From: a virus
DNA: 23,975 nt
IMG/VR virus record: IMGVR_UViG_3300045836_000072
Span: 1-23,975 of that record
Direction: 5' to 3' (one strand)
The position numbers and the translations under genes are program-made. Numbering within the stretch: position 1 is the stretch's first letter; each line of letters opens with the position of its first letter. Shown here piece after piece: positions 2,962 to 15,900 of the stretch. The notes below the pieces were generated by a model, which had not been told where the DNA came from, did no database searches, and was given only the letters and a program-made list of their open reading frames with translations.

Positions 2962-3201
2962 ATGGATACTCCAACAGAAACATGTCAAATTGCCGAATAT
3001 ATGGAGGCTGCATGTGACAAGAAAATTGATGTATGCTCTAATACTGCCACTGACCCTGTAGGACTAACGGTTTGTGGCGCCACTTTTTACTTCAAAGTGT
3101 GCTCAGAGTGTAGAGCAAATTTGCTAGAGTCTATGAAATTGGCTGTAGCTGAAATGATGAGAAAAGAAAGAAGCGAAAGGTATAGGTCTTATAATGTCTG
3201 A
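2962..3201 (+). CDS. small Cys-rich protein, probable zinc binder
   Basis: This 79-residue protein has a strong SD (GAAGGAGAAT) before its ATG. Six cysteines are present: Cys8, Cys18, then CSN and VCGATFYFKVCSEC, the last forming a CxxC pair. The layout suggests a small zinc ribbon or treble clef. The C-terminus is basic and helical (MMRKERSERYRSY). It opens the accessory cluster and its end overlaps the start of the Acb2-like gene by eight bases, so the two are probably co-translated. I do not recognise the family and assign no function. Confidence 0.7.
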   Translation: MDTPTETCQIAEYMEAACDKKIDVCSNTATDPVGLTVCGATFYFKVCSECRANLLESMKLAVAEMMRKERSERYRSYNV

Positions 3202-3412
3202 AGAACAAAAGCAACGAATTGAGAATAATTTCACCTATCATGCACCGAAACCTGGGCAACCACAACGCTATGAGGTGATTCGCAACGAAGCCAAAGAGTT
3301 GGCAATGCTCATTGTAGAAGAGACACCTGTATCAAGAGAGCAGTCGTTGGCTCTCACGAAACTGGAAGAAGTGGTGTTCTGGGCAAATGCTGCCATAGCG
3401 CGCAATGAGTAG
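3194..3412 (+). CDS. acb2: Acb2-family anti-CBASS cyclic nucleotide sponge
   Basis: This 72-residue protein matches the Acb2/Tad1-type helical hairpin family from end to end. It has NNFTYHAPKPGQPQRYEVIR at the N-terminus, AKELAMLIVEETP in the middle and the hallmark SREQSLALTKLEEVVFWANA followed by AIARNE at the C-terminus. Acb2 proteins form hexamers that bind cyclic di- and trinucleotides made by CBASS cyclases, so the effector is not activated and infection is not aborted. Recognition is by motif from memory; ligand preference cannot be read here. The gene is in a translationally coupled chain inside the structural operon, so it may be made late or carried in a co-transcribed block. Confidence 0.85.
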   Translation: MSEEQKQRIENNFTYHAPKPGQPQRYEVIRNEAKELAMLIVEETPVSREQSLALTKLEEVVFWANAAIARNE

Positions 3413-3418
3413 CGTATC

Positions 3419-3817
3419 ATGAGCATAAAACACTATATTAAGTGTGAGATGTGTGATAAGACACATCCATTTTACCAACGACCGTATGAAAAAGCTTTGC
3501 CTGAAGAATGGGTAACGCTTGCTGTGAGTATGCATGATGATCAGCATTTCTGCTCACGAGATTGCCTCGTAAAGTGGGTTGGCACTTCAGAGCAAGCAGA
3601 CAAGCCAGAATGTAAGGCACGCCGTTTTGTCATGAGTGATGGTACAGAGGGTGTGAAGTGGAAAGATGGTTGTGTTGATCTTGATACGAATTCTCCTCAT
3701 TGCTTGCTCCAATCCGATTCCAGACATTGCAATGGCATATTCTACAGTTGGAACGAGTTTATTAACCATCACTTTAACTGTGAGATCACTTGGATTGATG
3801 AGGAGCGCAAAGCATGA
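3419..3817 (+). CDS. small zinc-finger-like phage protein, unknown function
   Basis: This 132-residue protein has an N-terminal CEMC pair (residues 9-12) and a downstream FCSRDCLVKW motif (about 43-52). Together these look like a treble-clef zinc site of the CxxC...CxxxC type common in small phage proteins. A second Cys/His-rich patch follows (PHCLLQSDSRHCNG, INHHFNCEITW). The gene starts six bases after the Acb2-like gene and shares an ATGA stop/start overlap with the next gene at 3814. I see no catalytic signature. It could be DNA- or protein-binding, or a defence-modulating protein given its neighbour. Confidence 0.7.
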   Translation: MSIKHYIKCEMCDKTHPFYQRPYEKALPEEWVTLAVSMHDDQHFCSRDCLVKWVGTSEQADKPECKARRFVMSDGTEGVKWKDGCVDLDTNSPHCLLQSDSRHCNGIFYSWNEFINHHFNCEITWIDEERKA

Positions 3818-4200
3818 CGATCTATCTTAGCGACAGCAGCAAAACAACAGGTGTTATTGCATATGACGACATAAGTCAAGTCAGCGATGGATACCACACC
3901 TTCGATGAGCTATACAAGCATCGTATCCTGCTGTTTATCGCACTGATGAAAGAGTTGTATGGGATATCTTGGTGGTCTCGCAAGCATGCAGACGGGACTG
4001 AGTGGGATGGCTGGATTATTGCTGGTATACATCTTACTACTGGTGATATCACGTATCACCTGAGCGCTGATTATGCTACTCTATTGGATGATATTGGTAT
4101 ACGGTGTCTTGAGAAGGCCCCTGCATGGGACGGGCACACGTCTGATGACGTGCTACAGCGGTTAAGTGATTGGATCTCAGAAAAGGGCACAGTAATATGA
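3814..4200 (+). CDS. conserved phage protein of the DGYHTFDELY...WDGHT type, unknown function
   Basis: This 128-residue protein carries the recurring phage pattern DGYHTFDELYKHRILLFIAL, followed by WWSRKHADGTEWDGWIIAGI, GDITYHLSADYATLL and APAWDGHTSDDVLQRLSDWI. I know this pattern from many tailed phages as a protein of unknown function. Conserved His, Trp and Asp residues suggest a small-molecule or metal site, but no enzyme family is evident. The SD (GAGGAG) lies in the end of the preceding gene and the ATG overlaps that gene's TGA (ATGA). The next gene starts at a second ATGA overlap at 4197. Confidence 0.75.
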   Translation: MTIYLSDSSKTTGVIAYDDISQVSDGYHTFDELYKHRILLFIALMKELYGISWWSRKHADGTEWDGWIIAGIHLTTGDITYHLSADYATLLDDIGIRCLEKAPAWDGHTSDDVLQRLSDWISEKGTVI

Positions 4201-4652
4201 GCTTATACAAACATACCCCACATCCTCATACCCCTAAAAACGTCAATCAAGCCCAAAAAGAAGAGCAGCAGAGCTTCAATGATCGCATTGCAGTTGCAAT
4301 CACGCGTGCCCTGGGCTCAATGTGGGCGGCGTATCTCTTCATGATCCTTGCCCTTATTGGCTTTCCTGGCCTGAATGCAACACCATTTCAGTATGTGCAA
4401 TGGGTATCGCAGACATTTATTCAGCTTGTGGCTTTGAGCATTATCCAGCTTGGAACGCAGATATTAGGGCGCAAGGCCGAACTACAAGCAGAAGAGCAGT
4501 ATAATACAACTGTGAAAAGCTTTCACGATATTGAGCAGATTATGCAACATTTGGACGCTCAGGATCGTGAACTTGAGCGCATTGGGCAGTTGTTGGAAGC
4601 CAGGAAACGTACACCTGTGCGCAAGGTTGAGACAAAGGAGCAAGTGCTGTGA
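4197..4652 (+). CDS. DUF1003-like two-helix membrane protein
   Basis: I start this gene at the ATG of the ATGA overlap (4197), giving 151 residues, rather than at the longer 4170 option, which would overlap its neighbour by 31 bases without an SD. The pattern FNDRIAVAITRALGSMWAAY, a first membrane helix (LFMILALIGFPGL), a short loop, a second helix (FIQLVALSIIQLGTQIL) and a basic cytoplasmic stretch, then a coiled coil (HDIEQIMQHLDAQDRELERI), follow DUF1003 proteins. Their role is unknown. A membrane position is probable and the phage function is open: superinfection exclusion, a lysis accessory or anti-defence are all possible. Confidence 0.65.
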   Translation: MSLYKHTPHPHTPKNVNQAQKEEQQSFNDRIAVAITRALGSMWAAYLFMILALIGFPGLNATPFQYVQWVSQTFIQLVALSIIQLGTQILGRKAELQAEEQYNTTVKSFHDIEQIMQHLDAQDRELERIGQLLEARKRTPVRKVETKEQVL

Positions 4653-4906
4653 GCGATCAGAACCCACGAGATACACAGTTTGTGAATTTTGCCAAGCTGG
4701 TTATTGCTGATCTGGAAGAAGATCATGATTTACGCATGGATATCGCGATTGATGATGTTATAGCAATCATTGCGCGTCGTGGCTATGACCTTGTGGAGCA
4801 TGCACTGGAAACAATGAACCCTATTGCGCACCAATATGCAAAATCAACTGAAGAGATTGTCCGCAGTATTCCAGATATGGAATGGCCAGAGGATCAGGTA
4901 TTATGA
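4649..4906 (+). CDS. small acidic hypothetical protein
   Basis: This 85-residue protein starts at a GTG that overlaps the previous stop (GTGA). The SD AAGGAG lies 9 bases upstream, inside the end of the preceding gene. The sequence is acidic and mostly helical (FAKLVIADLEEDHDLRMDI, IDDVIAIIARRGYDLVEHAL) without cysteines or membrane segments. It ends in DQVL, like its two neighbours, because their last codons double as the next gene's SD. I do not recognise a family. Confidence 0.6.
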   Translation: MSDQNPRDTQFVNFAKLVIADLEEDHDLRMDIAIDDVIAIIARRGYDLVEHALETMNPIAHQYAKSTEEIVRSIPDMEWPEDQVL

Positions 4907-5130
4907 GTCATAAATACATTGAATATGTCAAAGCGTGGCATGTTCTTTATGGGGGGTATCCAGTGACTATCCCAGCAGCGTACTACCAAGACGTTGGCAA
5001 AACACTTTATCTAACCAATAGTGCGCTCAATGGAGATCCAGAGCAGGATGGATTTATTGCCTCACTTGATAAGCCAATAGAAATTGCTCTTGTTGAAAAA
5101 GTGGAGCAACGGAAGGATCAAGTGCTGTGA
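4903..5130 (+). CDS. small hypothetical protein
   Basis: The ATG at 4903 overlaps the preceding stop (ATGA) and has AGAGGA about nine bases upstream, so I prefer it over the in-frame start at 4882. The product is 75 residues, aromatic-rich at the N-terminus (YIEYVKAWHVLYGGYPVTI) and beta-like afterwards (KTLYLTNSAL, PIEIALVEKVEQ). It ends in KDQVL over an SD-bearing junction nearly identical to that at 4634-4652. No family is recognised. Confidence 0.55.
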   Translation: MSHKYIEYVKAWHVLYGGYPVTIPAAYYQDVGKTLYLTNSALNGDPEQDGFIASLDKPIEIALVEKVEQRKDQVL

Positions 5131-5432
5131 ATAAACTTATTATCACAACTCAATTTGCTGAAGCTGTTGTACAACTTCTGCTACAGCACGAGCTTATTGA
5201 GCGTTATTATTTGCGACGGGTTTTACTTCCTGGCTCGCTGGAGATCAATTATCCAGACGATGCAGTTTGTCAAGCATTGACTCTGTGGTTGCATTTGGCG
5301 GTTGGTTGTGGTTTGATCAGTAATTATCGCTTTGAGTCATCTTATGAGAAGTTGCCTGAAACTGCATTTGAGGCTGCGGAGCGCATACGCTCGCTTGGTC
5401 GTGCATTTGGACAAACATTAGGACAATTGTGA
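5127..5432 (+). CDS. small hypothetical protein
   Basis: This 101-residue protein uses GTG at 5127 overlapping the previous TGA, with AAGGATCA as SD. It is predominantly helical and hydrophobic (FAEAVVQLLLQHELIERYYL, VCQALTLWLHLAVGCGLI) but has no clear membrane helix. Its C-terminus (AAERIRSLGRAFGQTLGQL) contains the SD-like AGGACA for the next GTGA start. No family is recognised; its place in a coupled chain with the Acb2-like gene makes it one of the accessory set. Confidence 0.55.
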   Translation: MNKLIITTQFAEAVVQLLLQHELIERYYLRRVLLPGSLEINYPDDAVCQALTLWLHLAVGCGLISNYRFESSYEKLPETAFEAAERIRSLGRAFGQTLGQL

Positions 5433-5554
5433 GAACGGTTCTCGCATGGATCATAACCCTTGCAAGGACGTACTTGATCGGTTGGTTCGTCATGCACGGC
5501 ATGCCACGCGAGCAAGCTGTGCAGATGGTACAGCAGAAAGAGAGTGCAGAGTGA
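5429..5554 (+). CDS. 41-residue single-helix membrane protein
   Basis: This ORF falls below common length cut-offs but fits the operon exactly. It starts at a GTG overlapping the previous stop (GTGA, 5429-5432), and its own TGA (5552-5554) overlaps the next GTG (GTGA, 5551-5554). It encodes a single hydrophobic segment (VLAWIITLARTYLIGWFVM) followed by a polar helix (PREQAVQMVQQKESAE). The palindromic repeat lies inside it and encodes ITLART. An alternative reading, a start at 5446 in the next gene's frame, has no SD and no overlap logic. Confidence 0.6.
   Translation: MRTVLAWIITLARTYLIGWFVMHGMPREQAVQMVQQKESAE
5455..5467. repeat. CCCTTGCAAGGG palindrome, near-perfect copy
   Basis: AACCCTTGCAAGG followed by A matches the 12-bp core at 11 of 12 positions. 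It is inside the 41-residue gene. Confidence 0.6.
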
Positions 5555-5769
5555 ATATAGATTTGCTTGTATCTGTTGGCTATGTTCTTGCCTTATGTGC
5601 AAGTACTTCACTTGTGATTGTATTTATGCGTTGGCGTAGACGGTCCTACTCACAAACAATCCAACGAGAAAAGCCTATAAGGTATTATCGAATTGGGCAA
5701 GATGTAGATTATGACAAGCTTAAATTCCCCATTGGTCGGAGTGGAGTACGAGAAAACGATAACCTATAG
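5551..5769 (+). CDS. small membrane-anchored protein
   Basis: I start at the GTG of the GTGA overlap, preceded by a purine-rich AAAGAGAG, giving 72 residues. The N-terminus is a transmembrane helix (NIDLLVSVGYVLALCASTSLVIVFM) with a strongly basic flank (RWRRR), which predicts a cytoplasmic tail of about 45 residues (PIRYYRIGQDVDYDKLKF). It is the last gene of the accessory chain; a non-coding RNA-rich segment follows. No family is recognised. Confidence 0.55.
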   Translation: MNIDLLVSVGYVLALCASTSLVIVFMRWRRRSYSQTIQREKPIRYYRIGQDVDYDKLKFPIGRSGVRENDNL

Positions 5770-5778
5770 TCATACATA

Positions 5779-5807
5779 TTGCACAATCAATAACTTGAGA
5801 TTATACT
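5779..5807 (+). promoter_or_regulatory. sigma70-like promoter ahead of the non-coding RNA locus
   Basis: TTGCAC at 5779-5784 and TATACT at 5802-5807 are separated by 17 bases, four and five matches to the TTGACA/TATAAT consensus. It lies ten bases after the last accessory gene's stop, and the predicted start near 5814 precedes all RNA structures up to 6246. The surrounding sequence is AT-rich, so a chance match cannot be excluded. Confidence 0.5.
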
Positions 5808-5891: not shown

Positions 5892-6000
5892 TGGGTGTTG
5901 CCAGAGTCAGGCCTATTGGTGATCATAGCAAGAACCCTAAGTCAAATACCGCTATGAGGGAAAGGCAAGGGGTCCATCCGTTCGAATCGGATACACCCAT
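5892..6000 (+). ncRNA. tRNA-like structure with an expanded anticodon side
   Basis: A seven-pair acceptor stem (TGGGTGT 5892-5898 with ACACCCA 5993-5999) is followed by exactly two bases, TG, and a four-pair D stem (CCAG/TTGG, one G-T) with an 11-nt loop containing GG. The T arm is perfect: ATCCG-TTCGAAT-CGGAT (5976-5992), immediately before the acceptor strand. In place of a 5/7/5 anticodon arm there is TCATAGC (5923-5929) pairing with GCTATGA (5951-5957) around a 21-nt loop, then 18 unpaired bases. No anticodon can be assigned and no CCA is encoded. It could be a tRNA mimic, a degenerate tRNA or a domain of a larger RNA. Confidence 0.45.
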
Positions 6001-6040: not shown

Positions 6041-6109
6041 CCCTGCATTTTCGGCTGATGAGCGAAAGCGAAACATCGTAAGATGTCCCGTGGAGTGCTC
6101 CCAGCAGGG
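6041..6109 (+). ncRNA. type I hammerhead self-cleaving ribozyme
   Basis: The complete conserved core is present in order. CTGATGA (6055-6061) is followed by stem II GC-GAAA-GC (6062-6069) and then GAAA (6070-6073), whose last A opens stem III ACATC-GTAA-GATGT (6073-6086). C6087 is the cleavage nucleotide of a GTC triplet. CGG (6052-6054) pairs with CCG (6088-6090) next to the core as stem I, and an outer stem I, CCCTGC (6041-6046) with GCAGGG (6104-6109), closes the molecule across internal loops of 5 and 13 nt that could make the usual stem I-stem II tertiary contact. Cleavage is expected between 6087 and 6088. Stem II is only two pairs, which is short, but its GAAA loop is stable. Confidence 0.88.
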
Positions 6110-6149
6110 GAATAACCGAGCACCTAGACGGCTCAACATATTTTTACAA

Positions 6150-6206
6150 GACGACTGATTGATATATCCGGGCTGTAAAGCCTTAAACATAGATATATTC
6201 GGCGTC
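6150..6206 (+). promoter_or_regulatory. covarying RNA leader element, copy A
   Basis: The element folds as GACG/CGTC (6150-6153 with 6203-6206), an internal loop, ATATATC/GATATAT (6162-6168 with 6192-6198), a loop TTAAACAT and an apical GGCT-GTAA-AGCC (6171-6182). Copy B at 14124-14180 aligns without gaps and keeps the loops TGATTG, GTAA, TTAAAYAT and TTCGG while its stem pairs change in compensation. The 3' CGTC is also part of the following terminator stem, so the two folds exclude each other as in an attenuator or riboswitch. Known class not recognised. Confidence 0.65.
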
Positions 6207-6245
6207 TCTGGATCGCATTGTAAGCGGTTCGGAGGCGCTTTTTTT
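6202..6245 (+). terminator. intrinsic terminator-like hairpin ahead of the prohead protease gene
   Basis: GCGTCTC (6202-6208) pairs with GAGGCGC (6232-6238), with inner pairing around CGC/GCG (6214-6216, 6224-6226), followed directly by seven T. The SD of the protease gene begins three bases after the T run, so the hairpin ends the leader rather than an upstream operon alone. Confidence 0.7.
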
Positions 6246-6264
6246 ATTGAGGAGTGAGCGTTAT

Positions 6265-7830
6265 ATGGAATTATTCGAGATCTTCCCAGAAGGCGCTGAG
6301 GAGCTGGGCATACAACGCTCACTCTCTAAAGCTGAGCGTGACGCCATTGATGATGAAGACTTTGCGTGGCCAGAAGAGCACAAGTATCCAATCAACACAC
6401 AGGCTCATCTTGATGCTGCTGCAAAGCTGATTGGTCGCGCTCCTGAAGCTGAGCAGGCCAAAATTAAGGCTCGTGCAATCCGCATTGCAAAGCGCAAAGG
6501 CTTTACTCTGCCAGAGTCCTGGCAAGAGGATGAGGGTAAAGACGACAAGAAAGAAGAGCGTGCTGTCTCTGCTGCTGCAACCCCTGCTGCAAACCTGTCC
6601 ATGTACTTCCCGATTGTGCGCACTGATGCAGACCAGTGGATAGTGGAAGGGCAGGCCACAAGCGAGGCCATAGACTCATACGGCACGATCTTTGAGTATG
6701 AGAGCAGCAAGAAAGCCTTTCAAGAGTGGATCAAGCGTGGCAACATTCGTGAGCAGCATGATCCACGCAAGGCCGTAGGCAAGGCCCTGGCAGTCGAATT
6801 TGATGATGTCAATAGAGCCATTTACGTGCGTGCCAGGATCTCAAAAGGTGCTCGTGACACGTGGGAAAAGATCTTAGACGGCACACTTTCAGGCTTCTCT
6901 ATCGGTGTTCCTGGTGACGCCAAAGTCAAATATGTGGAGCGTGGCAATAACAAGCGCGTCCCGATGTACTATGACCATCGTTTGGCTGAATTGTCCGTTG
7001 TTGATGCGCCTGGCTCTCCTAATTGCGACATGCGCCCTGTGGTCAGGGCAGACGGCTCATTCACTGATCTCATTGACGATGTGACAGAGGAAGAGACGAC
7101 CCCAGAACCTGCACAGCCCGAACAGATTGAGCGTGCTGGTGCGCGTGTCTCAACCGACACAAAGAGCAAGATGCACACATCCATTGGACACGCGTTGCAC
7201 TCAGTTGTTGGTCAAATGCAGAATTGTGGTTGTGAGGACTGCAGTGCCGCCATGAAGATGATTGACCCTGACAATGATGGTGACATCGATCTTGGTGGCT
7301 ACGATGACCCAGACCACGACTGGCAAGAACTGTACAACCAATCCTCAAATGATGAGGAGATGGAGCGCAAAATCTCAGGAATGATTGAGCGCGCGCTTCA
7401 ACCTGTTTTCGCAAGATTCCAAGGCATAGCCGGTACCCTTGCAAGGGTCAACGGTGGTGCCTCTTTACATACATCAACCCCATCAATCGAGACGATTGTA
7501 TCCGGTGCGATCACACGCGCTGTGGAAGCGGCTACTACTGCCCATGCTTCAAGCCTGACTGAAGTACGCGCTGATTTGTCAGCGGTAAAAGAGCAGGTTG
7601 GACGAATTGCAGACACGCCCATGCCTGGTGCCCCGATTATGAACGCTGGTGCAATGCCTCGCCCAACAGTCGAAAAGCGACTGGCAACCGATCCATATCA
7701 AGCCCATCCACGCTCTGGTAGCTCTGTGTATGACGCACTTGCTCGCATGAGTGAAGCCGGGATGCTTGATACCCCTGAAAGACAAGCAGATGCTATTGCC
7801 GCTGGCTACATAGCACAGCGCAGAGGATAA
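6265..7830 (+). CDS. prohead protease with N-terminal DUF6582-like and C-terminal scaffold-like regions
   Basis: I start at ATG 6265 (521 residues), with GAGGAG at 6248-6253 as SD; the TTG at 6247 overlaps the SD. Residues about 25-85 (FAWPEEHKYPINTQAHLDAA ... IRIAKRKGF) resemble the DUF6582 module found on phage proteases. Residues about 115-265 are an HK97/XkdF-type prohead protease: EGQATSEAIDSYGTIF, then REQHD with candidate catalytic His165, GTLSGFSIG with candidate Ser212, and LAELSVVDAPGSPNCD. The remaining 250 residues are acidic, Ala-rich and helical, as expected for a scaffolding region cleaved during capsid maturation. The major capsid gene follows after six bases. Confidence 0.85.
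   Translation: MELFEIFPEGAEELGIQRSLSKAERDAIDDEDFAWPEEHKYPINTQAHLDAAAKLIGRAPEAEQAKIKARAIRIAKRKGFTLPESWQEDEGKDDKKEERAVSAAATPAANLSMYFPIVRTDADQWIVEGQATSEAIDSYGTIFEYESSKKAFQEWIKRGNIREQHDPRKAVGKALAVEFDDVNRAIYVRARISKGARDTWEKILDGTLSGFSIGVPGDAKVKYVERGNNKRVPMYYDHRLAELSVVDAPGSPNCDMRPVVRADGSFTDLIDDVTEEETTPEPAQPEQIERAGARVSTDTKSKMHTSIGHALHSVVGQMQNCGCEDCSAAMKMIDPDNDGDIDLGGYDDPDHDWQELYNQSSNDEEMERKISGMIERALQPVFARFQGIAGTLARVNGGASLHTSTPSIETIVSGAITRAVEAATTAHASSLTEVRADLSAVKEQVGRIADTPMPGAPIMNAGAMPRPTVEKRLATDPYQAHPRSGSSVYDALARMSEAGMLDTPERQADAIAAGYIAQRRG
7435..7448. repeat. CCCTTGCAAGGG palindrome, inside protease gene
   Basis: ACCCTTGCAAGGGT is a perfect 14-bp palindrome. It is read as TLARV in the scaffold-like region. 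Confidence 0.8.
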
Positions 7831-7836
7831 AGAAAC

Positions 7837-9663
7837 ATGGCAACAGAATCCGCAATTAAAGCACAATTGCCAGTTGACGCAAAGAAAGAGACTGGCAACA
7901 CGAAAGAGATTGCCGGTGTCATTGACGAGTCATTGGGTGGAGAAAGTGATGTTCTCCTCAATCAGGCTCGTATGATGGCTCGTGCAAGGCGTGGCGTCGT
8001 GTATGAAGCAGGCGGCAATATGAGCGATGAGTTCATCAATCAGCACCTCCTTCGCACGCCCAAAGAGTTCGTCAATCGCTCACTGAATAGCGAAACTATC
8101 CAGATGTTGCAACAGGGTCAGATCAACCGCGATCAACAGTACATTGGCAATAACAGCGACTGGACCGGCTACTACCTGGAGCCGCTCGCAAAGTTTGTTG
8201 TGCCATTTGACACTCCATTTCGTAACATGCTGCCACGCACGCCAAGCGTTGGCATTGACGTGGAGAATTGGCGTGCAATCACCAGCGTGTTCAATGGCAC
8301 TGGCCCTGCAATCACAAACTTTATCTTAAATCAGCAATCAGCCCCACAAAAAGCACAGTACGTCTGGGCAAACAAATCAAACCTCTTGCGACAGATTGCA
8401 TGGTCTGACGTTGTGACCGATGAGGCCGAAATCTACGGCAAAATGTTTGAGCCCGATGTGCGTGCAAAGGTTGCTGCAAAGCTTGCTCCTTCCCTGATGG
8501 TTGGTCAGGAAATGTGGTACTTAAACAGCGCACAGAACATGTGGAGCCCAGCGGTTGGCAATACTCCAAGCACTGCATCAACCGGTGGTCAGCTCTCCAA
8601 TGCCACATATTGGATTATTGTCACTGCCTATAACGCCAATGGTGAAACCCTTGCATGGAGCATTCCACCATCGAGTTCTACCGTTCCTGGTGCTGTATCG
8701 CAGACGGTCAGTGCAGGTGGCAACACCAATACAATCAGTTTCAATCTGATGCGTATTCCGAATGCGATTGCAGGCGGTTCTGGTGTGACTGGTGGTTGGA
8801 GCTACAACGTGTATGTTGGTACTGGCTCAACTCAGCCTGCTAACTCTGCTATGTGGAAGCAGAGTGCAACGCTGTGGACCAATAACAGCTATCCTTCTCA
8901 GACCGGATCTCATGCATTGGACGATCCAGGTGGTTACAGCCAGGGCTGGATGAACATCACGCTCACTGGCACACTGGCGACCTCTGGGACTGCCTACAGC
9001 ACCGTTGTCAGCGCTGGTAACACGGCTGTTGTTGCCTCATCCGGTGGCGGTGGCACACCTGCAAACCAAGCATTAACCTTTGATGGTATTCAGTCCCTCA
9101 TTTACTTGAATGCAGGCACGCTCTCAACCGTTGGAGAAGGTGGCGAGACTGCTGTTGTGAAGCGTGTGGCAGACGCAGGTGGAACGCTTTCCAAGTCTGA
9201 CATTGATGCATGGCTTGAAGCGATGTACTTCAACGGTCGCGCCAATCCTGAGTGTCTCTTAGTGGGCATTAAAGATCACAAAGCGATCTCCAATATTGTC
9301 ATGCAGTCCAGCAACTTCCGTGTGAACACGGCACCATCACAATCTGGGCTCTCCAATCTTGTCGGTGGTGGACGTGCTACGGGCTGGGTTAACCAGACGA
9401 CTGGCAGACTCATGGATATTGTGATGTGCCCATACTTGCCACAAGGCACAATCCTTGCGATCTCGCTCACATTGCCATTTACTGTTGCTGAGATTGAAAA
9501 GCCGCCTCTGCGCATCAGTGTGAACCGCGAAATGTGGAGCCGCGAATATCCGCCCGACCAGTCGCACCCAACCCAGTGGCTCTATGCCGCGTTCGGAAAC
9601 GAAACCATGGTGTCAAATTATCTGGCAGGCCAGGGTGCTCTAACGGGTATTGTAACTGCTTAG
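7837..9663 (+). CDS. major capsid protein with an inserted Ig/FnIII-like domain
   Basis: This 608-residue protein follows the prohead protease, as the HK97-fold capsid protein does. The N-terminal part (residues 1-240) has a charged delta-like start, WTGYYLEPLAKFVVPFDTPF and the N-arm/E-loop-like region. The C-terminal part (about 405-608) resumes the fold with ALTFDGIQSLIYLNAG, ECLLVGIKDHKAISNIV and CPYLPQGTILAISL. Between them (about 245-400) is a Gly/Ser/Thr-rich beta domain (LSNATYWIIVTAYNANGET, GWSYNVYVGTG) that looks like an Ig or fibronectin III-type insertion, likely displayed on the capsid surface. That makes the protein much longer than the typical 300-400 residues. SD AGAGGA is at 7822-7827. 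Confidence 0.85.
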   Translation: MATESAIKAQLPVDAKKETGNTKEIAGVIDESLGGESDVLLNQARMMARARRGVVYEAGGNMSDEFINQHLLRTPKEFVNRSLNSETIQMLQQGQINRDQQYIGNNSDWTGYYLEPLAKFVVPFDTPFRNMLPRTPSVGIDVENWRAITSVFNGTGPAITNFILNQQSAPQKAQYVWANKSNLLRQIAWSDVVTDEAEIYGKMFEPDVRAKVAAKLAPSLMVGQEMWYLNSAQNMWSPAVGNTPSTASTGGQLSNATYWIIVTAYNANGETLAWSIPPSSSTVPGAVSQTVSAGGNTNTISFNLMRIPNAIAGGSGVTGGWSYNVYVGTGSTQPANSAMWKQSATLWTNNSYPSQTGSHALDDPGGYSQGWMNITLTGTLATSGTAYSTVVSAGNTAVVASSGGGGTPANQALTFDGIQSLIYLNAGTLSTVGEGGETAVVKRVADAGGTLSKSDIDAWLEAMYFNGRANPECLLVGIKDHKAISNIVMQSSNFRVNTAPSQSGLSNLVGGGRATGWVNQTTGRLMDIVMCPYLPQGTILAISLTLPFTVAEIEKPPLRISVNREMWSREYPPDQSHPTQWLYAAFGNETMVSNYLAGQGALTGIVTA

Positions 9664-9691
9664 TGCAGTAGCTTCATAAGGAGAAAACATC

Positions 9692-10834
9692 ATGGGACAA
9701 GCTACTGATGGGCAGTTGCCATTTGACACATTGGGCTATCGTGCTGAGGGTGTCTATGTGCCTGGAGTTGGCACTGTTGCACAACAGGGCGCGACGCTTG
9801 GCACGGATAGCCAGGGCACGAACTACGCTGCAACGGTCGTCACAACTGCATCAGGTAGTGTAACCGCTCTCTCAGCGACAAATACAGGCTTGCCTGTCAA
9901 TTTGCCAACGATTGTGCAGAAGGCCAATGCGGTGAGCACTGGCTCTGTGGCATCACTTGCCAAGGCTTTTACCAATGCGAACACGGCTGGTAACTCTATT
10001 GTGGTCGTGTGTGGCGTTGGCAACAACTCCACCATTACGGTTACTGACTCCAATAGCAATACCTATACCCAGGCGGTGAGCGTTGCCAACAGCACAACAT
10101 TTGAGTCTGCCATCTTCTTTGCTACCAATATTGCAGGCGGCGCAAACACTGTTACAGTGGCTGCAACATCTGCCTCGATTGCAATGGAGATCTATGAAGT
10201 CAGTGGACTCATTGCGCAGTCTGGCAGTGTGTTAGGGCAAACCGTCACGAACACTGGCACAAGTGCAACACCAACCGGACCAAATATCACCGCTGGTGTT
10301 CCCAATGAGCTTGCATTTCTAGGTGTGGCAGTTGGCACGGCAGCCCAGGCAGTGAGTGCTACATCTGGCACATTCTGGTCTCTGGATAGCACCCAGAATA
10401 GTGGTGGTACACCATCCGGCCTGTTTAGCTTCGGTGCGCTCAATCAGCCCCTCGGCTCATTGAAAAGTGTGCAGCCAGCGGCAACCCTCGCAGGGTCAGA
10501 GCCCTATGCGTTGGCGGCGGCCTCCTTCAGGCCAGTTGCAGTCAGTGTGCAGGGCTCAGTCAGCATTGCAGGAAGCAACTATACCAACATCACCACGAAG
10601 ACCACAACAGTCGTCAAAACTGGCCCTGGTGTGTTGAAGTCGATCATTATCAACGCGCCTGGCACTGCTGACACGCTCACCATCTATGACAACACAGCGG
10701 CATCAGGCACAAAGATTGGCACCATCACGGTGACGGCTGGCTATCAGTACACGTATGAGGCTGCTTTTAGCACTGGTCTCACGATTGTCTCAGGTGGCAC
10801 AACGGCTGGTGATTATACCGCCATTTGGCGCTAA
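9692..10834 (+). CDS. beta-rich structural protein, probable head decoration or fibre
   Basis: This 380-residue protein is almost free of charged residues and is rich in Gly, Ser, Thr and Ala. Residues about 85-280 resemble a beta-sandwich module found in secreted bacterial and phage proteins (GNSIVVVCGVGNNSTITVTD, SNSNTYTQAV, IAGGANTVTVA, IYEVSGL). The last 70 residues (GVLKSIIINAPGTADTLTIY, GLTIVSGGTTAGDYTAIW) form a second small beta domain common in phage head or decoration proteins. SD AAGGAGAA lies before the ATG. Position just after the major capsid gene favours a decoration protein; a fibre is possible. Confidence 0.65.
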   Translation: MGQATDGQLPFDTLGYRAEGVYVPGVGTVAQQGATLGTDSQGTNYAATVVTTASGSVTALSATNTGLPVNLPTIVQKANAVSTGSVASLAKAFTNANTAGNSIVVVCGVGNNSTITVTDSNSNTYTQAVSVANSTTFESAIFFATNIAGGANTVTVAATSASIAMEIYEVSGLIAQSGSVLGQTVTNTGTSATPTGPNITAGVPNELAFLGVAVGTAAQAVSATSGTFWSLDSTQNSGGTPSGLFSFGALNQPLGSLKSVQPAATLAGSEPYALAAASFRPVAVSVQGSVSIAGSNYTNITTKTTTVVKTGPGVLKSIIINAPGTADTLTIYDNTAASGTKIGTITVTAGYQYTYEAAFSTGLTIVSGGTTAGDYTAIWR

Positions 10835-10842
10835 GTTTTTGT

Positions 10843-10866
10843 GGGTGAGGGTTTAGACTCTCACCC
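10843..10866 (+). other. stem-loop in a gene gap
   Basis: GGGTGAG pairs with CTCACCC across a ten-base loop. No T run follows, so it is not a standard terminator. It stands just before the palindromic repeat at 10873. Confidence 0.4.
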
Positions 10867-10872
10867 CTGCAC

Positions 10873-10887
10873 AACCCTTGCAAGGGA
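10873..10887. repeat. CCCTTGCAAGGG palindrome overlapping an SD
   Basis: AACCCTTGCAAGGGA contains the perfect core. Its right arm runs into AAGGGAGAGG, the ribosome binding site of the gene at 10894, so pairing of the palindrome could hide part of the SD. Confidence 0.8.
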
Positions 10888-10893
10888 GAGGTT

Positions 10894-11607
10894 ATGGCAG
10901 CACCAACAACAGCACCAAATGCGGAGTTCCAATCAGCCGGAAAACCAGTTGCACAGCCGTTTTATCTCGTTGATGTGAATGGCAATCCGATCACATCGAC
11001 AAACGGTGCCAGTATTCCCGTGTCGCTCAGTGCTGGTACAAATCTGATTGGCGGTGTCAATGTTGCTCAGTTTGGCGGCGTCAACACAACGATGGCAACT
11101 GCCGATGGTGTGGCGGCTGCTAATCTGCCTGAAATGGCGATTGGCCTGTATAACACATCATCAGGTGGCACAATCGACCGTATGCGTGACGCGGGTAGTG
11201 TTGGCGATGGCTCTACTATTGGCCTTGTTGCGGCTGCACACTACCTGTTCAATGGTGGCAGTTTTGATCGCCAACGCACACCTGGAAAGTTCATATCGAT
11301 CAAAAATGTGGCGGTGACGGCTGGCACTGCCCAACCTGTTTGGACGCCAGGATCAGGCAAAAAGTTCCATCTCATGGGTTTTGCGATTTCGCTCAGTGTG
11401 GCTGGCTACATCATTTTTGAGGATGGTAACGGTGGCTCAAGTGCTGAGTTCATCCGCACACCAGGAATGGCAGCAGGGATAGGTCTCGTCAATCCGGCCA
11501 ACTTTGGCAATGGCTACACCAGTACAGCAGCCAACAATGCGCTATACATGGATGTAAGTGCATCAGGCAATATTAACGGCTTTTTGTTCGGGACTGAAGA
11601 ATTCTAA
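10894..11607 (+). CDS. structural protein, probable head decoration or fibre-like
   Basis: This 237-residue protein has AAGGGAGAGG as SD. The N-terminus (AQPFYLVDVNGNPITSTNG) is a Gly/Asn turn-rich motif often seen at the start of phage decoration or fibre proteins. A second part (FISIKNVAVTAGTAQPVWTP, GKKFHLMGFAISLSVAGYII, NGYTSTAANNALYMDVS) resembles small beta domains of phage surface proteins. It sits between the capsid module and the head-tail connectors, which supports a virion role. No enzymatic motif is present. Confident as structural, not as to location. Confidence 0.6.
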   Translation: MAAPTTAPNAEFQSAGKPVAQPFYLVDVNGNPITSTNGASIPVSLSAGTNLIGGVNVAQFGGVNTTMATADGVAAANLPEMAIGLYNTSSGGTIDRMRDAGSVGDGSTIGLVAAAHYLFNGGSFDRQRTPGKFISIKNVAVTAGTAQPVWTPGSGKKFHLMGFAISLSVAGYIIFEDGNGGSSAEFIRTPGMAAGIGLVNPANFGNGYTSTAANNALYMDVSASGNINGFLFGTEEF

Positions 11608-11628
11608 TTAAAGACAAGTGGGAAGTGC

Positions 11629-12531
11629 ATGACCAACTGTTACATAGATTGCTTATCGTACAAAAATGCTGCAACTGGCATTGTGCTCAATATGCTGTAT
11701 GGCAATATCGGGCGCATTGCCACGACAGCACAAGGAGCCACGTCGCTCACGGTGACGGCGGCGCTCGCAACCGCGCTTGCCCAGTACGATAGCATCTATA
11801 TCACGGATGGCCCAAACAGTGAGATCTTGCAGGTTGGCAGTGGTGGAGCTGCTCAAGGCACAACCACCATACCCCTGCAAGGGGCAACACAGTTTGCTCA
11901 TGCAGGAGGCACGGCATATGTAACCGATGGGACGTTTGGCAGTCTGGGGCAAGCCATTTTTGAAGCTTCACAGCGCGTAGAAGACATTTGCTACCAGCCG
12001 CTCTATAGCACAGCATACACAGGCGAGATCTTGACGTTGCCAACAATGCGAGCTGCAATTGACAACCAGTACAATTTGCATTTCAGGCCGCGTCATTTTC
12101 CCATTACATCGCTCTCAACGATCACATTGCAGCTCAATCAGACCTATAGCGTGTCAATTGATGCAACACAAGCGATTATTGACAGTGATCAAAAGACGGT
12201 GGATATCCCGAATATCAACGTCTTGAACTCAACCCAACCGCAAGGCGGGCCCTATGTCTGGGGATTGTTCAATAGACAGATCAACGCATGGATTACGCTC
12301 TCGTACACATCTGGCTATAGTGCAGCGCAATTGCCACAAACGATCACCAGGGCGTGCAAATTGCTTGTCAGTGATGCATTAGGGCTTTTAGAGAACCCAA
12401 TAGGCGCAGATAGTATCCAACAGAACAAGCGCAATGTGACCTTTACGCTACGTGGTGATCAATCTGGGGAGTCTTTACTGTTTAAGCAGGCATCGGCTTT
12501 GCTCAGTCCATATATTGCACAAAGTTTCTGA
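11629..12531 (+). CDS. head-tail connector / adaptor protein
   Basis: This 300-residue protein has a beta-rich N-terminal extension (about 1-105, GATSLTVTAALATALAQYDS, ITDGPNSEILQVG). It then has an adaptor-like helical start (LGQAIFEASQRVEDICYQPL), a beta core (RHFPITSLSTITLQ) and a C-terminal helical pair (ITRACKLLVSDALGLLENP). This matches the layout of HK97 gp6 / SPP1 gp15-type adaptors, which bind under the portal, with an extra N-terminal domain. It is followed by three short genes in the usual neck order. Assignment is by layout and partial motif. Confidence 0.6.
   Translation: MTNCYIDCLSYKNAATGIVLNMLYGNIGRIATTAQGATSLTVTAALATALAQYDSIYITDGPNSEILQVGSGGAAQGTTTIPLQGATQFAHAGGTAYVTDGTFGSLGQAIFEASQRVEDICYQPLYSTAYTGEILTLPTMRAAIDNQYNLHFRPRHFPITSLSTITLQLNQTYSVSIDATQAIIDSDQKTVDIPNINVLNSTQPQGGPYVWGLFNRQINAWITLSYTSGYSAAQLPQTITRACKLLVSDALGLLENPIGADSIQQNKRNVTFTLRGDQSGESLLFKQASALLSPYIAQSF
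11871..11885. repeat. variant palindrome CCCCTGCAAGGGG
   Basis: This is a shifted variant of the dispersed palindrome (CCCCT-GCA-AGGGG) inside the connector gene. I count it as a diverged or related site, not a perfect copy. Confidence 0.4.
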
Positions 12532-12552
12532 AGTTTCTGATTGGAGGGCTGC

Positions 12553-12849
12553 ATGGGCTTTTTTGCAACGCACATTGTCAGTGTGCAGCACGTCAATGGG
12601 CAGGTCGTGGCGACTAACTTGCCTGTGCAGCTTGATCCTGTCAATTTGCCCATTGATCTCCAGGTGCAAGGGCTGGTGCCGGTGGATGTGTATGATTGTG
12701 AAACCATTGGATGGATGAGTCCCGTGCCAATCCGCACGGATTATCTGGTAGATCAGAACGGGATCAAGTATCAAATGTTTTCAACGGTGTTTGTAGGCAT
12801 TAACTCTCTCCAATTTCGTGTCACGAAGTACTTAGGAGCAACGCCTTGA
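12553..12849 (+). CDS. head-closure (stopper) protein candidate
   Basis: ATG 12553 follows TTGGAGGGC at a normal distance, so I reject the TTG at 12541 that overlaps this SD. The 98-residue product is beta-rich (VVATNLPVQLDPVNLPIDLQ, DYLVDQNGIKYQMFSTVFVG), consistent with SPP1 gp16 / HK97 gp7-like stopper proteins that close the connector after packaging. The final codons overlap the TTG start of the next gene. No specific stopper motif is decisive, so this rests on size, fold type and gene order. Confidence 0.5.
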   Translation: MGFFATHIVSVQHVNGQVVATNLPVQLDPVNLPIDLQVQGLVPVDVYDCETIGWMSPVPIRTDYLVDQNGIKYQMFSTVFVGINSLQFRVTKYLGATP

Positions 12850-13271
12850 GTACATTTGAACTTCATGCAGAGGTTGATCCGGTAAGCCTTGTACAGTTGA
12901 GTCGCTTGCAAAACTATCAGGCGGCGTTCAAGACGCATGTGCTTAAAGGCTTGTGGCGAAGTGTGGAGGTCCTGGAAACAACGGCGGTTGGTTACATGTG
13001 GGATCACTTTCAAAATCCCACAGGACAGCTTGAGAATGCATTCACATGGGGCATTCTCGACTGGAATAGGGTGTATCTGGACAATACGCAACCATACGCA
13101 AGGCGTCGCAATTGGGGTTTTAGCGGTATGACAGACTCCCTAGGTCGAACGTATCTTGATGATCCGGGAATTTATTGGGCTGAGAACTCAATCGAGACGG
13201 TCTCATCTGAAGTTGAGGATATTTTTCAAGAGGAGATGCAGGATGCCATTAATGGCATAGCTGCATATTGA
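12846..13271 (+). CDS. neck/tail-completion protein, HK97 gp10-like
   Basis: This 141-residue protein starts at TTG 12846 overlapping the previous TGA, with AGGAGC about seven bases upstream. It begins with a helical basic segment (LQNYQAAFKTHVLKGLWRSV), followed by WDHFQNPTGQLENAFTWGIL and an aromatic middle (YARRRNWGFSGM), and ends in an acidic amphipathic helix. Gene order and length match HK97 gp10-type neck or minor tail proteins. The following gene starts a few bases later. Confidence 0.55.
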   Translation: MSTFELHAEVDPVSLVQLSRLQNYQAAFKTHVLKGLWRSVEVLETTAVGYMWDHFQNPTGQLENAFTWGILDWNRVYLDNTQPYARRRNWGFSGMTDSLGRTYLDDPGIYWAENSIETVSSEVEDIFQEEMQDAINGIAAY

Positions 13272-13275
13272 TGGT

Positions 13276-13791
13276 ATGGCAAACACGAGCATGAGATTGA
13301 CCATTGCACAGGGGCTGGTTGCCATGTTGCAAGGGGTACAGAATCCCAATACAAGCTCTGCCCTCTTTGCTCTGGTTAAATTGGGTCATGTGTTCGACCC
13401 TAGCGCTTATGCTACTGGTTGGTGTGAAGTGTCATTCTCGCAAGCAAAGAGCGGTCCTGCTGGTAGTGGGGGAAACCTCGTTGGGTGGCGCATTGAAGAC
13501 AATCCAGTGTTTGCCATCACAAGTGGTTGGCCGTATGACACTGATAGCACAGCAGCAGAGACCAATATGCTCACAGCCATGGATATCCTAATGCCAATCT
13601 TGCATAGTCATTATCAGATCCCAGCGCCAAATAATCCGACACAGCCCATTGCGACCGTGTACAGCCTGCTTGAAGACCAACAGCCCGAACAGGCACGTGT
13701 GGTTAGATATGCCAATGGTAAAGTTTATATTTTATGGAAAACCTATGTACTTGTAAAACAACAATACTCAGTCCTATTAGTTAATCCGTGA
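13276..13791 (+). CDS. tail terminator candidate
   Basis: This 171-residue protein begins MANTSMRLTIAQGLVAMLQG. It contains PYDTDSTAAETNMLTAMDIL and ends with VVRYANGKVYILWKTYVLVK. The mixed helix-sheet pattern and its place as the last neck gene before the tail tube suggest the tail terminator (lambda gpU / HK97 gp11 type). ATG 13276 lies five bases after the previous stop; an out-of-frame ATG at 13271 overlaps it. No strong SD is seen, so coupled translation is likely. Confidence 0.5.
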   Translation: MANTSMRLTIAQGLVAMLQGVQNPNTSSALFALVKLGHVFDPSAYATGWCEVSFSQAKSGPAGSGGNLVGWRIEDNPVFAITSGWPYDTDSTAAETNMLTAMDILMPILHSHYQIPAPNNPTQPIATVYSLLEDQQPEQARVVRYANGKVYILWKTYVLVKQQYSVLLVNP

Positions 13792-13802
13792 GGAATGCAA
13801 TC

Positions 13803-14096
13803 ATGACTGAAATTGTCTTTTTCCCTAGTGCAGGATCATACCCTGGCTTTCCTGGTACCCATGGCCCTGGCCTGTACGAGGTTAATTTTGAGGCTCGCAC
13901 AATCACACCAGTGCCAGATATCTCAACTATTGTTGATTCGACAATTGAACCTGTTGCACCGCTTGCGGTATCAGAGCCTGCGCAAGAACCCTTGCAAGGG
14001 TCAGAGCAAGAACCAGATCCCAATGCAACACAGCCATTAGAAGAACCAACAGAGCCAGTCGTAGAGGGGCAAGAGCAATCCCCTGCCTGGCAGTAG
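13803..14096 (+). CDS. short Pro/Glu-rich protein with disordered C-terminus
   Basis: ATG 13803 follows GAGGAA; the GTG at 13788 lies before the SD. The 97-residue product has an ordered first third (IVFFPSAGSYPGFPGTHGPG, LYEVNFEARTITPVP) and a P/E/Q-rich remainder that is probably disordered. The palindromic repeat falls in it and is read EPLQGS. Proteins of this form (short beta start, PE-rich tail) occur beside tail-tube genes, but I do not recognise its role. Confidence 0.6.
   Translation: MTEIVFFPSAGSYPGFPGTHGPGLYEVNFEARTITPVPDISTIVDSTIEPVAPLAVSEPAQEPLQGSEQEPDPNATQPLEEPTEPVVEGQEQSPAWQ
13987..14001. repeat. CCCTTGCAAGGG palindrome, inside the Pro/Glu-rich gene
   Basis: AACCCTTGCAAGGGT has the perfect 12-bp core. 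It is read in a different codon phase from the copies in the protease and tape measure genes. Confidence 0.8.
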
Positions 14097-14123
14097 TAGT
14101 ACTTACTAACTGAATACACATTA

Positions 14124-14180
14124 GACGTTTGATTGATATTCTCGGCTCGTAAGAGCTTAAATATGAGCATATTCGGCGTC
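14124..14180 (+). promoter_or_regulatory. covarying RNA leader element, copy B
   Basis: This aligns gap-free with copy A over 63 bases. The closing GACG/CGTC (14124-14127, 14177-14180) and the loops GTAA and TTAAATAT are kept. The apical stem is GCTC/GAGC (14145-14148, 14153-14156) instead of GGCT/AGCC, and the middle stem pairs ATATTCTC with GAGCATAT (one mismatch). At least five stem positions change on both sides and stay paired. It ends in the terminator at 14175-14217, 19 bases before the tail-tube start. Confidence 0.65.
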
Positions 14181-14217
14181 TCTGGACCACTTTCTTTGTG
14201 GCCTGGAGACGCCTTTT
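14175..14217 (+). terminator. intrinsic terminator-like hairpin ahead of the major tail protein gene
   Basis: GGCGTCTC (14175-14182) pairs perfectly with GAGACGCC (14206-14213), with an inner CCAC/GTGG stem (14187-14190, 14198-14201), then TTTT. The SD AAGGAGAG starts at 14221. As at 6202-6245, its left arm overlaps the strand needed to close the leader element. Confidence 0.7.
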
Positions 14218-14235
14218 GTTAAGGAGAGATTGAAA

Positions 14236-15900
14236 ATGCCAGTCATCACCGGCGTTCAGGGTTACAGTGGCCTAAGCCAACAAACTCGCTTGGTCCTTGA
14301 GCCTACAGCAGGGGAGCAGGTGCTCTTAGCCCAGACAGCGGGGGCTGGCACCATGAGTCTCACAACTCAACCAAACACGCTCTCACCAACCACAGGCATG
14401 GCCCTGCACTTTTACGTGATCGGCAATACTGGAGCTGGTTCCATCACGATTGCAGGCACTAATCCGAGCGGTGGAAGCTTCACATCGATCACATACCACG
14501 TGCCAGCCGCGCCGCAAAATAATCAAGGATATACCGAATTCACGACCAAAGAGGCATTTGCAACCGTCAACGCATCGGGTATCACACTCACCAGCCTCAC
14601 CCCGTGTCAGATTATCGTGTTCGGTAGCTATTGTGGAAAATACTTGATCCCCATCACAGCCGATGCTGAGGAGAAGATTGCACACTTCAGCCCACAAGAC
14701 AAGCGTGGCATCTTATTCAAAAACCTTCGTGTCACCCAGATCACAAAGGGCGCATCACTGGACAAGTTTGATGCGGCACTGTATCCAGATAGCCTGTGGG
14801 CTCCGTATATGCTGATTGGCAATACGCCAACCGTTACCACAGTACCTGCCTCACCGACTGTCCTGCTGGCTTCCACTGCCATTGCGGCAACCATGACGCT
14901 CACATCAGGCCCTGCGGCTCCTGGTGAGTTTTTGGTCTTTACCATCACATCAAACACTGCATCGGGCACGATTGTGGTTGGTGGCACCGATCAATACGGC
15001 AATCCGTACGGCTCTACTGAGACCATTACGTTTACCAATGCTGCATCGCAGACGGTGTATAGTTCACGCCGCTACAGTGTGGTCAACAATGGCGGCGCAA
15101 ACAAGATTGCCACGACGGGTGGCACTGGTGCAAGTATCGCAGTCGGTGGCGTGTACGCCTGGCAATACGCGTGGACGTATGACGGGCTTAACAACACGAA
15201 TATCTACACTGCAAGCCTGGAAATCTTCAATGGTGTGTTCGGTTACAAGCTCCCCTACACCTTCTTTTCAGAAGGTACATTCTCCTGGGAGAAAGAGAAA
15301 GAGATCTCTTTTGCAGGCAAGGGAGAGGCTCAGGACTACCTTGTTGTGGGCGATCCTACCTCAACAACTGTTGGCACAAACCCATTCGCCACGCTTTCAC
15401 AGCCATCGTCAATCCCGATGGTCTCCTGGCCAGCGTCGTTCTATATTGATGCAGGCAATGGCGGCGTGCCTTTGACCACGCAAGATGGCAGCCTCAAATC
15501 ATTCAAAATCCAGATCTCGACAGGTCGCAAGCCGTTCTATACTGGCGACGCCTTCCAACGGTGGAACAACATTGCGATTGAGAGCGAGCCCGATATTGCG
15601 CTTGATGCAACAATTGTCGTTCCAAACTACCAGAACTACATCAACTACTTCAAGCCTAACACGCCTTTAATCTTCGGTGCCACTTTCCAAGGCAACTTCC
15701 TGGGCACGATCAGCAGCACAACTTACTATGAGCAAATTCAATGGATCGTCCCCGCAAAGATCGATTCTTGGAAAACGGATATGTCTAAAAATCCCGTAGA
15801 AGGGACTTTAAAACTGTTAAGCGAATATTCGTTCGCAAATCTTGGATATGCATATAAAACGATATGGATCGCTCAGCAACCGCCTGTATACACTGCTTAG
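14236..15900 (+). CDS. major tail (tube) protein with Ig-like domains
   Basis: ATG 14236 follows AAGGAGAG by seven bases; the TTG at 14230 is too close to the SD. The 554-residue protein has tube-protein features after residue 320: NIYTASLEIFNGVFGYKLPY, TFSWEKEKEISFAGKGEAQD, LKSFKIQISTGRKPFYTGD and DTYYEQ-like strands near the end. Residues about 20-125 and 198-305 are Gly/Thr-rich beta regions (TMSLTTQPNTLSPTTGMALH; MTLTSGPAAPGEFLVFTITS) that look like Ig-type decorations. It is followed by the chaperone pair and tape measure, the standard order for long non-contractile tails. Confidence 0.75.
   Translation: MPVITGVQGYSGLSQQTRLVLEPTAGEQVLLAQTAGAGTMSLTTQPNTLSPTTGMALHFYVIGNTGAGSITIAGTNPSGGSFTSITYHVPAAPQNNQGYTEFTTKEAFATVNASGITLTSLTPCQIIVFGSYCGKYLIPITADAEEKIAHFSPQDKRGILFKNLRVTQITKGASLDKFDAALYPDSLWAPYMLIGNTPTVTTVPASPTVLLASTAIAATMTLTSGPAAPGEFLVFTITSNTASGTIVVGGTDQYGNPYGSTETITFTNAASQTVYSSRRYSVVNNGGANKIATTGGTGASIAVGGVYAWQYAWTYDGLNNTNIYTASLEIFNGVFGYKLPYTFFSEGTFSWEKEKEISFAGKGEAQDYLVVGDPTSTTVGTNPFATLSQPSSIPMVSWPASFYIDAGNGGVPLTTQDGSLKSFKIQISTGRKPFYTGDAFQRWNNIAIESEPDIALDATIVVPNYQNYINYFKPNTPLIFGATFQGNFLGTISSTTYYEQIQWIVPAKIDSWKTDMSKNPVEGTLKLLSEYSFANLGYAYKTIWIAQQPPVYTA

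Follow-up and report, generated by a model that had tools for sequence, protein, structure and literature searches.

The locus and its genes

The window, which is the whole stretch of DNA analysed here, is a single IMG/VR virus record of 23,975 bases. Two related elements are located on its plus strand, at 6149-6243 (copy 1) and 14123-14217 (copy 2), and each of them consists of a 58-nt leader that runs into a terminator-like hairpin with a T-tract. Copy 1 is situated in front of a prohead protease gene (6265..7830, +; phrog_9427, E 7e-31, with a sub-threshold match to Peptidase_S78), and a capsid-like gene (7837-9663) follows directly after the protease gene. Copy 2 is situated in front of a gene (14236..15900, +) for a putative tail tube or major tail protein. 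Family searches with the product of this gene gave no match, and its structure model is of low confidence (mean pLDDT 50) and therefore too poor for a fold search. A preliminary description of this DNA had placed the two copies before the protease-capsid module and the tail-tube gene; the protease is confirmed, whereas the name tail tube is given by position only.

Shortly before copy 1 comes an accessory island (2962-5769) that carries a gene with an Acb2/Tad1 domain. This gene is a 72-aa ORF (3194-3412, +) within the virion gene cluster; judged by its Acb2/Tad1 hairpin domain (PF24729, E 3e-20), the product is likely an anti-CBASS/anti-Thoeris protein. An ORF with a WDGH domain (PF25311, E 2.5e-35) is observed at 3814-4200 (+). 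A tRNA-like sequence with acceptor and T-arm is present at about 5892-6000, and similar sequences are found in the related contigs L006 (6037-6131) and L102 (about 2055-2160). In the window and in L006 the anticodon loop has grown to about 20 nt, and the two have ATAGC-AAGAAC...AATACC-GCTAT in common; ARAGORN called no tRNA at the tRNA-like sequences, and its output at a low threshold was noise. A hammerhead-ribozyme-like motif (6041..6108, +), recognised by a regular expression for its core and by its stems, is located between the tRNA-like sequence and the leader of copy 1. It is composed of CUGAUGA, a 2-bp stem II with a GAAA loop, GAAA, a 5-bp stem III with a GUAA loop, GUC, and a stem I formed by CGG/CCG plus CCCUGC/GCAGGG. 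Cleavage is predicted after GUC near 6087, the score against Rfam HH9 (16.2 bits) is under the gathering score, and the motif is the single match to the pattern among the window and the related records searched. We also note that the palindrome CCCTTGCAAGGG is dispersed in the window at about seven sites (38, 7435, 11871, 13988, 15934, 19166 and 22007); some copies are imperfect, some lie within genes, and it may be a host-like iterated palindrome.

Promoter scans revealed nothing convincing next to either copy in the window. The region upstream of copy 1 contains two promoter candidates against 1.0 expected from shuffles, which is a weak excess. One sigma-70-like candidate, TGCACA-16-TATACT (5780..5807, +; 9/12 score), is located upstream of the tRNA-like element, the hammerhead-like motif and copy 1. 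As copy 1 has no convincing adjacent promoter and this TATACT lies at 5802, its RNA may start at the 5802 candidate, in which case it may extend across both the tRNA-like element and the hammerhead-like motif. Polymerases that are already moving along the operon probably transcribe copy 2.

Two copies of a covarying leader

The two copies are 7974 nt apart and align without gaps over 95 nt with 71% identity. This agrees with the earlier claim of two gapless copies 8 kb apart, and the aligned block extends beyond the 63 nt given then because the terminator is common to both copies as well. The homologous block starts with AGACG, the 5' strand of a proposed closing stem P1, and ends with the T-tract. 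The sequences upstream of the two copies bear no likeness to each other, and the homology has its start at P1 and not at a promoter.

The leader of copy 1 (6149..6206, +) forms four helices, namely P1 (6150-6153/6203-6206), P1b (6155-6158/6199-6202), P2 (6162-6168/6192-6198) and P3 (6170-6174/6179-6183), the last of which carries a GUAA loop, and an 8-nt bulge is present on the 3' side (6184-6191). The leader of copy 2 (14123..14180, +) has the same architecture. Both leaders are delineated by the ungapped repeat, by covariation, by RNAalifold, which recovered P1, P1b, P2 and P3 unaided from the two-copy alignment, and by a covariance model, R2, against which copy 1 scores 87.6 bits, R2 having been built from copy 1 itself.

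A script count over the two copies gives 20 leader pairs, among which five are changed on both sides with compensation, one shows a single compatible change and one is broken. From copy 1 to copy 2, the apical stem P3 changes from G-C to C-G, from C-G to U-A and from U-A to C-G, which are the three double changes reported in the preliminary description. The middle stem P2 changes from U-A to C-G and from C-G to U-A, so that the two compensated pairs claimed for it are found as well, together with one lost pair (A-U to U-C). When the substitutions were shuffled among positions, at least five compensations arose in 22 of 200,000 trials (p about 1e-4), and confining the shuffle to paired columns gave p 2.8e-4 for five compensations; both values apply to a leader structure that was picked after inspection of the sequence. 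The loops had been described as unchanged, and this is correct for GTAA, TGATTG and TTCGG, which are the same in both copies, but TTAAAYAT contains a single C/T difference. The leader is under selection for RNA structure, and the covariation in P2 and P3 shows that it folds.

The terminators and the proposed switch helix

In copy 1 the terminator comprises a hairpin (6201-6239) and a T-tract (together 6201..6246, +), and ends ~20 nt upstream of the protease ATG at 6265. In copy 2 the hairpin (14175-14213) is followed by the tract TTTTGTT (together 14175..14219, +), 16 nt upstream of the ATG at 14236. All 15 terminator pairs are kept between the copies, which differ there by one double change and five single ones. 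Each copy folds with an energy of about -27 kcal/mol (z about -7), and the plus strand of the window has no other strong terminator-like hairpin outside long ORFs.

The strand CGTC (6203-6206 and 14177-14180) is the closing strand of the leader and at the same time part of the 5' arm of the terminator, as the preliminary description had stated. The further claim was that closing the leader prevents the terminator. The geometry is right for this; nevertheless, P1 shows no covariation and the terminator is the favoured form. P1/P1b is kept in both copies, with a change from C-G to U-G as the sole difference and no double change, and therefore carries no covariation. Shuffling of its 5' strand gave an equally stable leader in 7% of trials for copy 1 and 34% for copy 2. 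Relative to RNA in which P1 is enforced, the terminator form is favoured by 5.6 kcal/mol in copy 1 and by 11.2 kcal/mol in copy 2. Folding of successive prefixes places P1 within the minimum-energy state up to nt 86-88 of 98, and P1 would therefore be present before the terminator is complete. The closing pairing P1/P1b is weakly supported as a switch helix and could have a chance origin. According to the calculated energies, termination is the expected default and read-through would require help; since P1 lacks covariation and the terminator is energetically favoured, an extra factor would be needed.

The thermodynamic dominance of the terminator is what would be seen if the hairpin were passive. 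It could end the transcript of the accessory island (the anti-CBASS-like gene and the tRNA-like sequence), or tune expression by partial termination, with the leader serving only in the processing or stability of the mRNA end, and late transcription either leaking through or using a global antiterminator that is blind to the leader. The position of the island, which adjoins copy 1 and carries the Acb2/Tad1-domain gene, fits such an insulator. Copy 2, in contrast, sits between late genes, and the loops and stems of the leader are kept with compensation in both copies, neither of which a passive terminator would lead one to expect. We consider this explanation unlikely, though it deserves to be taken seriously, and the related phages discussed below bear on it further.

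Search for further copies and for known families

Pattern scans of viral contigs in IMG/VR gave no further copy of the leader, and neither did BLAST, regular expressions or covariance model R2 in ~25 related contigs. A covariance model of the kind proposed in the preliminary description, R2, thus added no leader from the related contigs. A sensitive blastn search of the copies against 50,697 phage records yielded no match. The 58 pattern matches obtained in viral contigs are ascribed to chance, and R2 gave them no support. Another pattern scan gave three matches, which were also rejected; an R2 score of 20.9 bits was obtained for L118, which had been selected via the P1 pattern, and as its region 5200-5460 has no terminator hairpin with T-tract it was dismissed as a chance match. 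Neither a host nor a prophage emerged when genomes were scanned with the portal and capsid proteins. Domains of the NusG and AntitermQ (PF06530) type are absent from the 12 records searched, several of which are fragments.

Rfam gave no match at gathering scores and nothing credible at relaxed thresholds. This bears on the suggestion, also made in the preliminary description, that the element is a riboswitch. A metabolite riboswitch controlling the virion genes would account for an aptamer-like stem with conserved bulges beside an expression platform. The leaders of relatives at the same gene are unrelated, however, a metabolic logic for gating virion genes is lacking, and neither a ligand nor Rfam speaks for it; we regard it as highly improbable.

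Terminators and leaders in related phages

About 25 related IMG/VR contigs were collected through capsid and tail-protein scans, and their capsid-like proteins, where aligned, are 52-78% identical to that of the window. Among 17 distinct phages (window counted), 15 have a terminator-like hairpin with a T-run immediately ahead of the protease gene; the phages share ancestry, so that the count reflects conservation and not independent repetition. Such a hairpin is present at 2 of 87 other homologous gene starts, tube starts being left out (Fisher p 4e-14, for a pattern that was first seen by reading upstream of protease genes and scored afterwards), and in 6.5% of dinucleotide shuffles of the same protease leaders. 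Terminators before the protease gene are thus kept across the lineage. An extended -10-like box is situated 23-68 nt upstream of the hairpin in most relatives with no gene between them, which disagrees with a hairpin that merely ends an upstream transcript. G014, L018 and L030, where an ORF lies immediately upstream and a nearby promoter is missing, are the cases that a passive terminator would explain. We also note that in G028 (L094/L102, from 2279) and G007 (L009) the protease is apparently fused N-terminally to a 2H phosphoesterase-like domain, as judged by eye.

Of 16 relatives, 11 carry a short GAGCY box close to the hairpin, compared with a mean of 1.1 and a maximum of 7 in 2000 rounds of shuffling, and in 10 of those 11 it lies at -21 to -23 from the hairpin. 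The corresponding sequences in the window are AAGCC in copy 1 (6178..6182, +), at -23 from the terminator and spanning the loop end and the 3' strand of P3, and GAGCT in copy 2 (14153..14157, +), at -22 and in the 3' strand of P3. The contig L025 contains, at 693-753, four GAGCC units including three GAGCCAA repeats with a 7-nt period that run into the hairpin; by its sequence the array looks like a multi-site RNA-binding target.

The protease leaders of nine relatives can be aligned, and covariation is seen in them at two places, the terminator stem and a 3-bp mini-hairpin that follows the box. The alignment cells are paired in 95% of cases, compared with 79% after shuffling and at most 52% with partners slid, and 23 cells with double changes are observed against 7.6 in shuffles. 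A covariance model built from these nine leaders, R3, recovers its members (56-75 bits) and a few more protease leaders, and found no match in unrelated viral DNA totalling 497 kb. The window copies gave no R3 score above noise (7.8 bits, E 3.4 for copy 1), and the window is therefore not filed as a member of the R3 family; its copies have the layout and the box position in common with the relatives' leaders.

More than one module per phage is observed among the relatives. In G028, the protease gene is preceded by one module and the tail-tube homologue by a second, partly similar one (80% over 40 nt); the window has its two copies at these two genes as well, but with a different sequence. In G026 and the kindred G009 and G011, several genes are preceded by terminators built as GAGCC-stem-GAGCCAC-stem; these genes include the protease, a g11-like gene close to the tail tube and, in G009, the portal, and several of the terminators have a -10-like box 8-16 nt upstream. 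The attenuator or antiterminator layout put forward in the preliminary description is supported by a covarying leader that overlaps its terminator, by the hairpin at the protease gene, by the covarying leaders of relatives and by the two modules of G028.

The -10-like boxes of the relatives also raise an explanation at the level of DNA. TTGATATATC in one copy and TTGATATTCT in the other would be extended -10 promoters, with the RNA starting inside the element, so that P2 and P3 would never be transcribed, and the inverted repeat would be a DNA operator. The extended -10 of relatives lies upstream of the hairpin, as does TGaTATTCT in copy 2 at 32 nt, and the position of GAGCY agrees. Against this, TATATC of copy 1 lacks the conserved final T, the copies differ in this hexamer, with two of the three changed positions compensated in P2, and the distance from -10 to box is 9-10 nt as opposed to 16-29 nt in the box-bearing relatives. 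Symmetric double changes are, moreover, not expected of a single operator, and this explanation appears improbable.

Proposed mechanism

The reading that we favour, with a little more than even confidence, is that each copy is a conditional terminator, promoter-proximal or within the operon, that gates a virion module, and that the leader of the window is a lineage-specific elaboration. RNA polymerase would transcribe the 58-nt leader, which would fold co-transcriptionally. By default, the strong terminator would end transcription just upstream of the protease gene or the putative tail-tube gene. With its P1 probably closed and a factor attached, the leader would hide the 5' arm of the terminator, CGGCGUC, or modify RNA polymerase, and read-through would ensue. 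A putative phage or host factor would recognise the conserved loops, the GAGCY box in P3, or both. The -10-like TGATAT in each copy is a possible pause signal of the putL kind (PMC9378689), the rival role being that of a promoter.

As relatives have different leader-terminator modules at the same gene, the gating is taken to be a trait of the family, and the leader of the window to be lineage-specific and duplicated. Weighing against a conditional terminator are the small number of leader copies known, just two, the lack of covariation in P1 and the energetic preference for the terminator. The RNA element is real and apparently undescribed, and is probably a variant of transcription attenuation or antitermination. 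The different modules that the relatives carry at this place suggest that these phages activate virion genes by overcoming an inbuilt stop signal, and not solely via transcription start.

A wider proposal, which we put forward as tentative, is a phage antitermination system so far undescribed. An uncultured tailed-phage lineage would have terminators for individual modules (prohead protease, tail tube and in some cases portal) and a putative factor that reads an RNA GAGCY box and leader hairpin. The RNA signal would be specific to a phage but common to the modules of that phage, and the duplicated 58-nt leader of the window would be its most elaborate form. Late gene control is known in few phage groups. 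The comparative data suggest that a whole uncultured lineage sets terminators before the prohead-protease gene under the control of covarying RNA leaders, with no recognisable Q or NusG-type protein in the 12 records, several of them fragments. On this view an antiterminator of a new kind is to be expected, as is a compact RNA switch.

Comparison with known systems

The put RNA binds the zinc-binding domain of the beta' subunit of RNA polymerase and suppresses distant terminators. In phage HK022 it consists of two stem-loops, about 70 nt in all, that act on RNA polymerase, and putL contains a -10-like pause sequence (PMC9378689). The preliminary description had named put-like RNA among its options, and a leader acting in cis on RNA polymerase, protein-free, would confer resistance to the adjacent and to later terminators. 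Each phage would then have two similar, related RNA elements of about 60-70 nt with bulged stems, putatively permitting read-through, and the internal TGATAT recalls the putL pause sequence (PMC9378689). The window, however, has one bulged 58-nt stem-loop whose base overlaps its own terminator, in contrast to the two free stem-loops of put, and the phage collection of 50,697 records contains nothing similar at the BLAST level. We give this option little chance, and the conditional terminator remains the preferred reading.

Late control of the lambda type combines a promoter, an early terminator and antitermination by Q. The arrangement in most relatives is similar, in that a terminator lies ahead of the virion genes, some tens of nt at most downstream of a promoter-like site. 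It differs in that the AntitermQ domain was not found in those 12 records, in that several modules are present per genome, in the RNA-level covarying leaders, and in that the window has no clear adjacent promoter. The lambda nut site is composed of boxA and the boxB hairpin. The relatives resemble it in having a short conserved GAGCY box and, between this box and the terminator, a covarying 3-bp mini-hairpin. Unlike nut, the box has another sequence, the site abuts the terminator, no N-like protein was identified, and the window has no mini-hairpin.

Compared with attenuators and terminator riboswitches, the window element has no known leader peptide or ligand, and it would gate phage virion genes. 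It shares with them a predicted leader helix that is mutually exclusive with an intrinsic terminator before a gene, and their generic feature, a terminator hairpin with a T-tract between a putative transcript start and the gene, is seen at both window genes.
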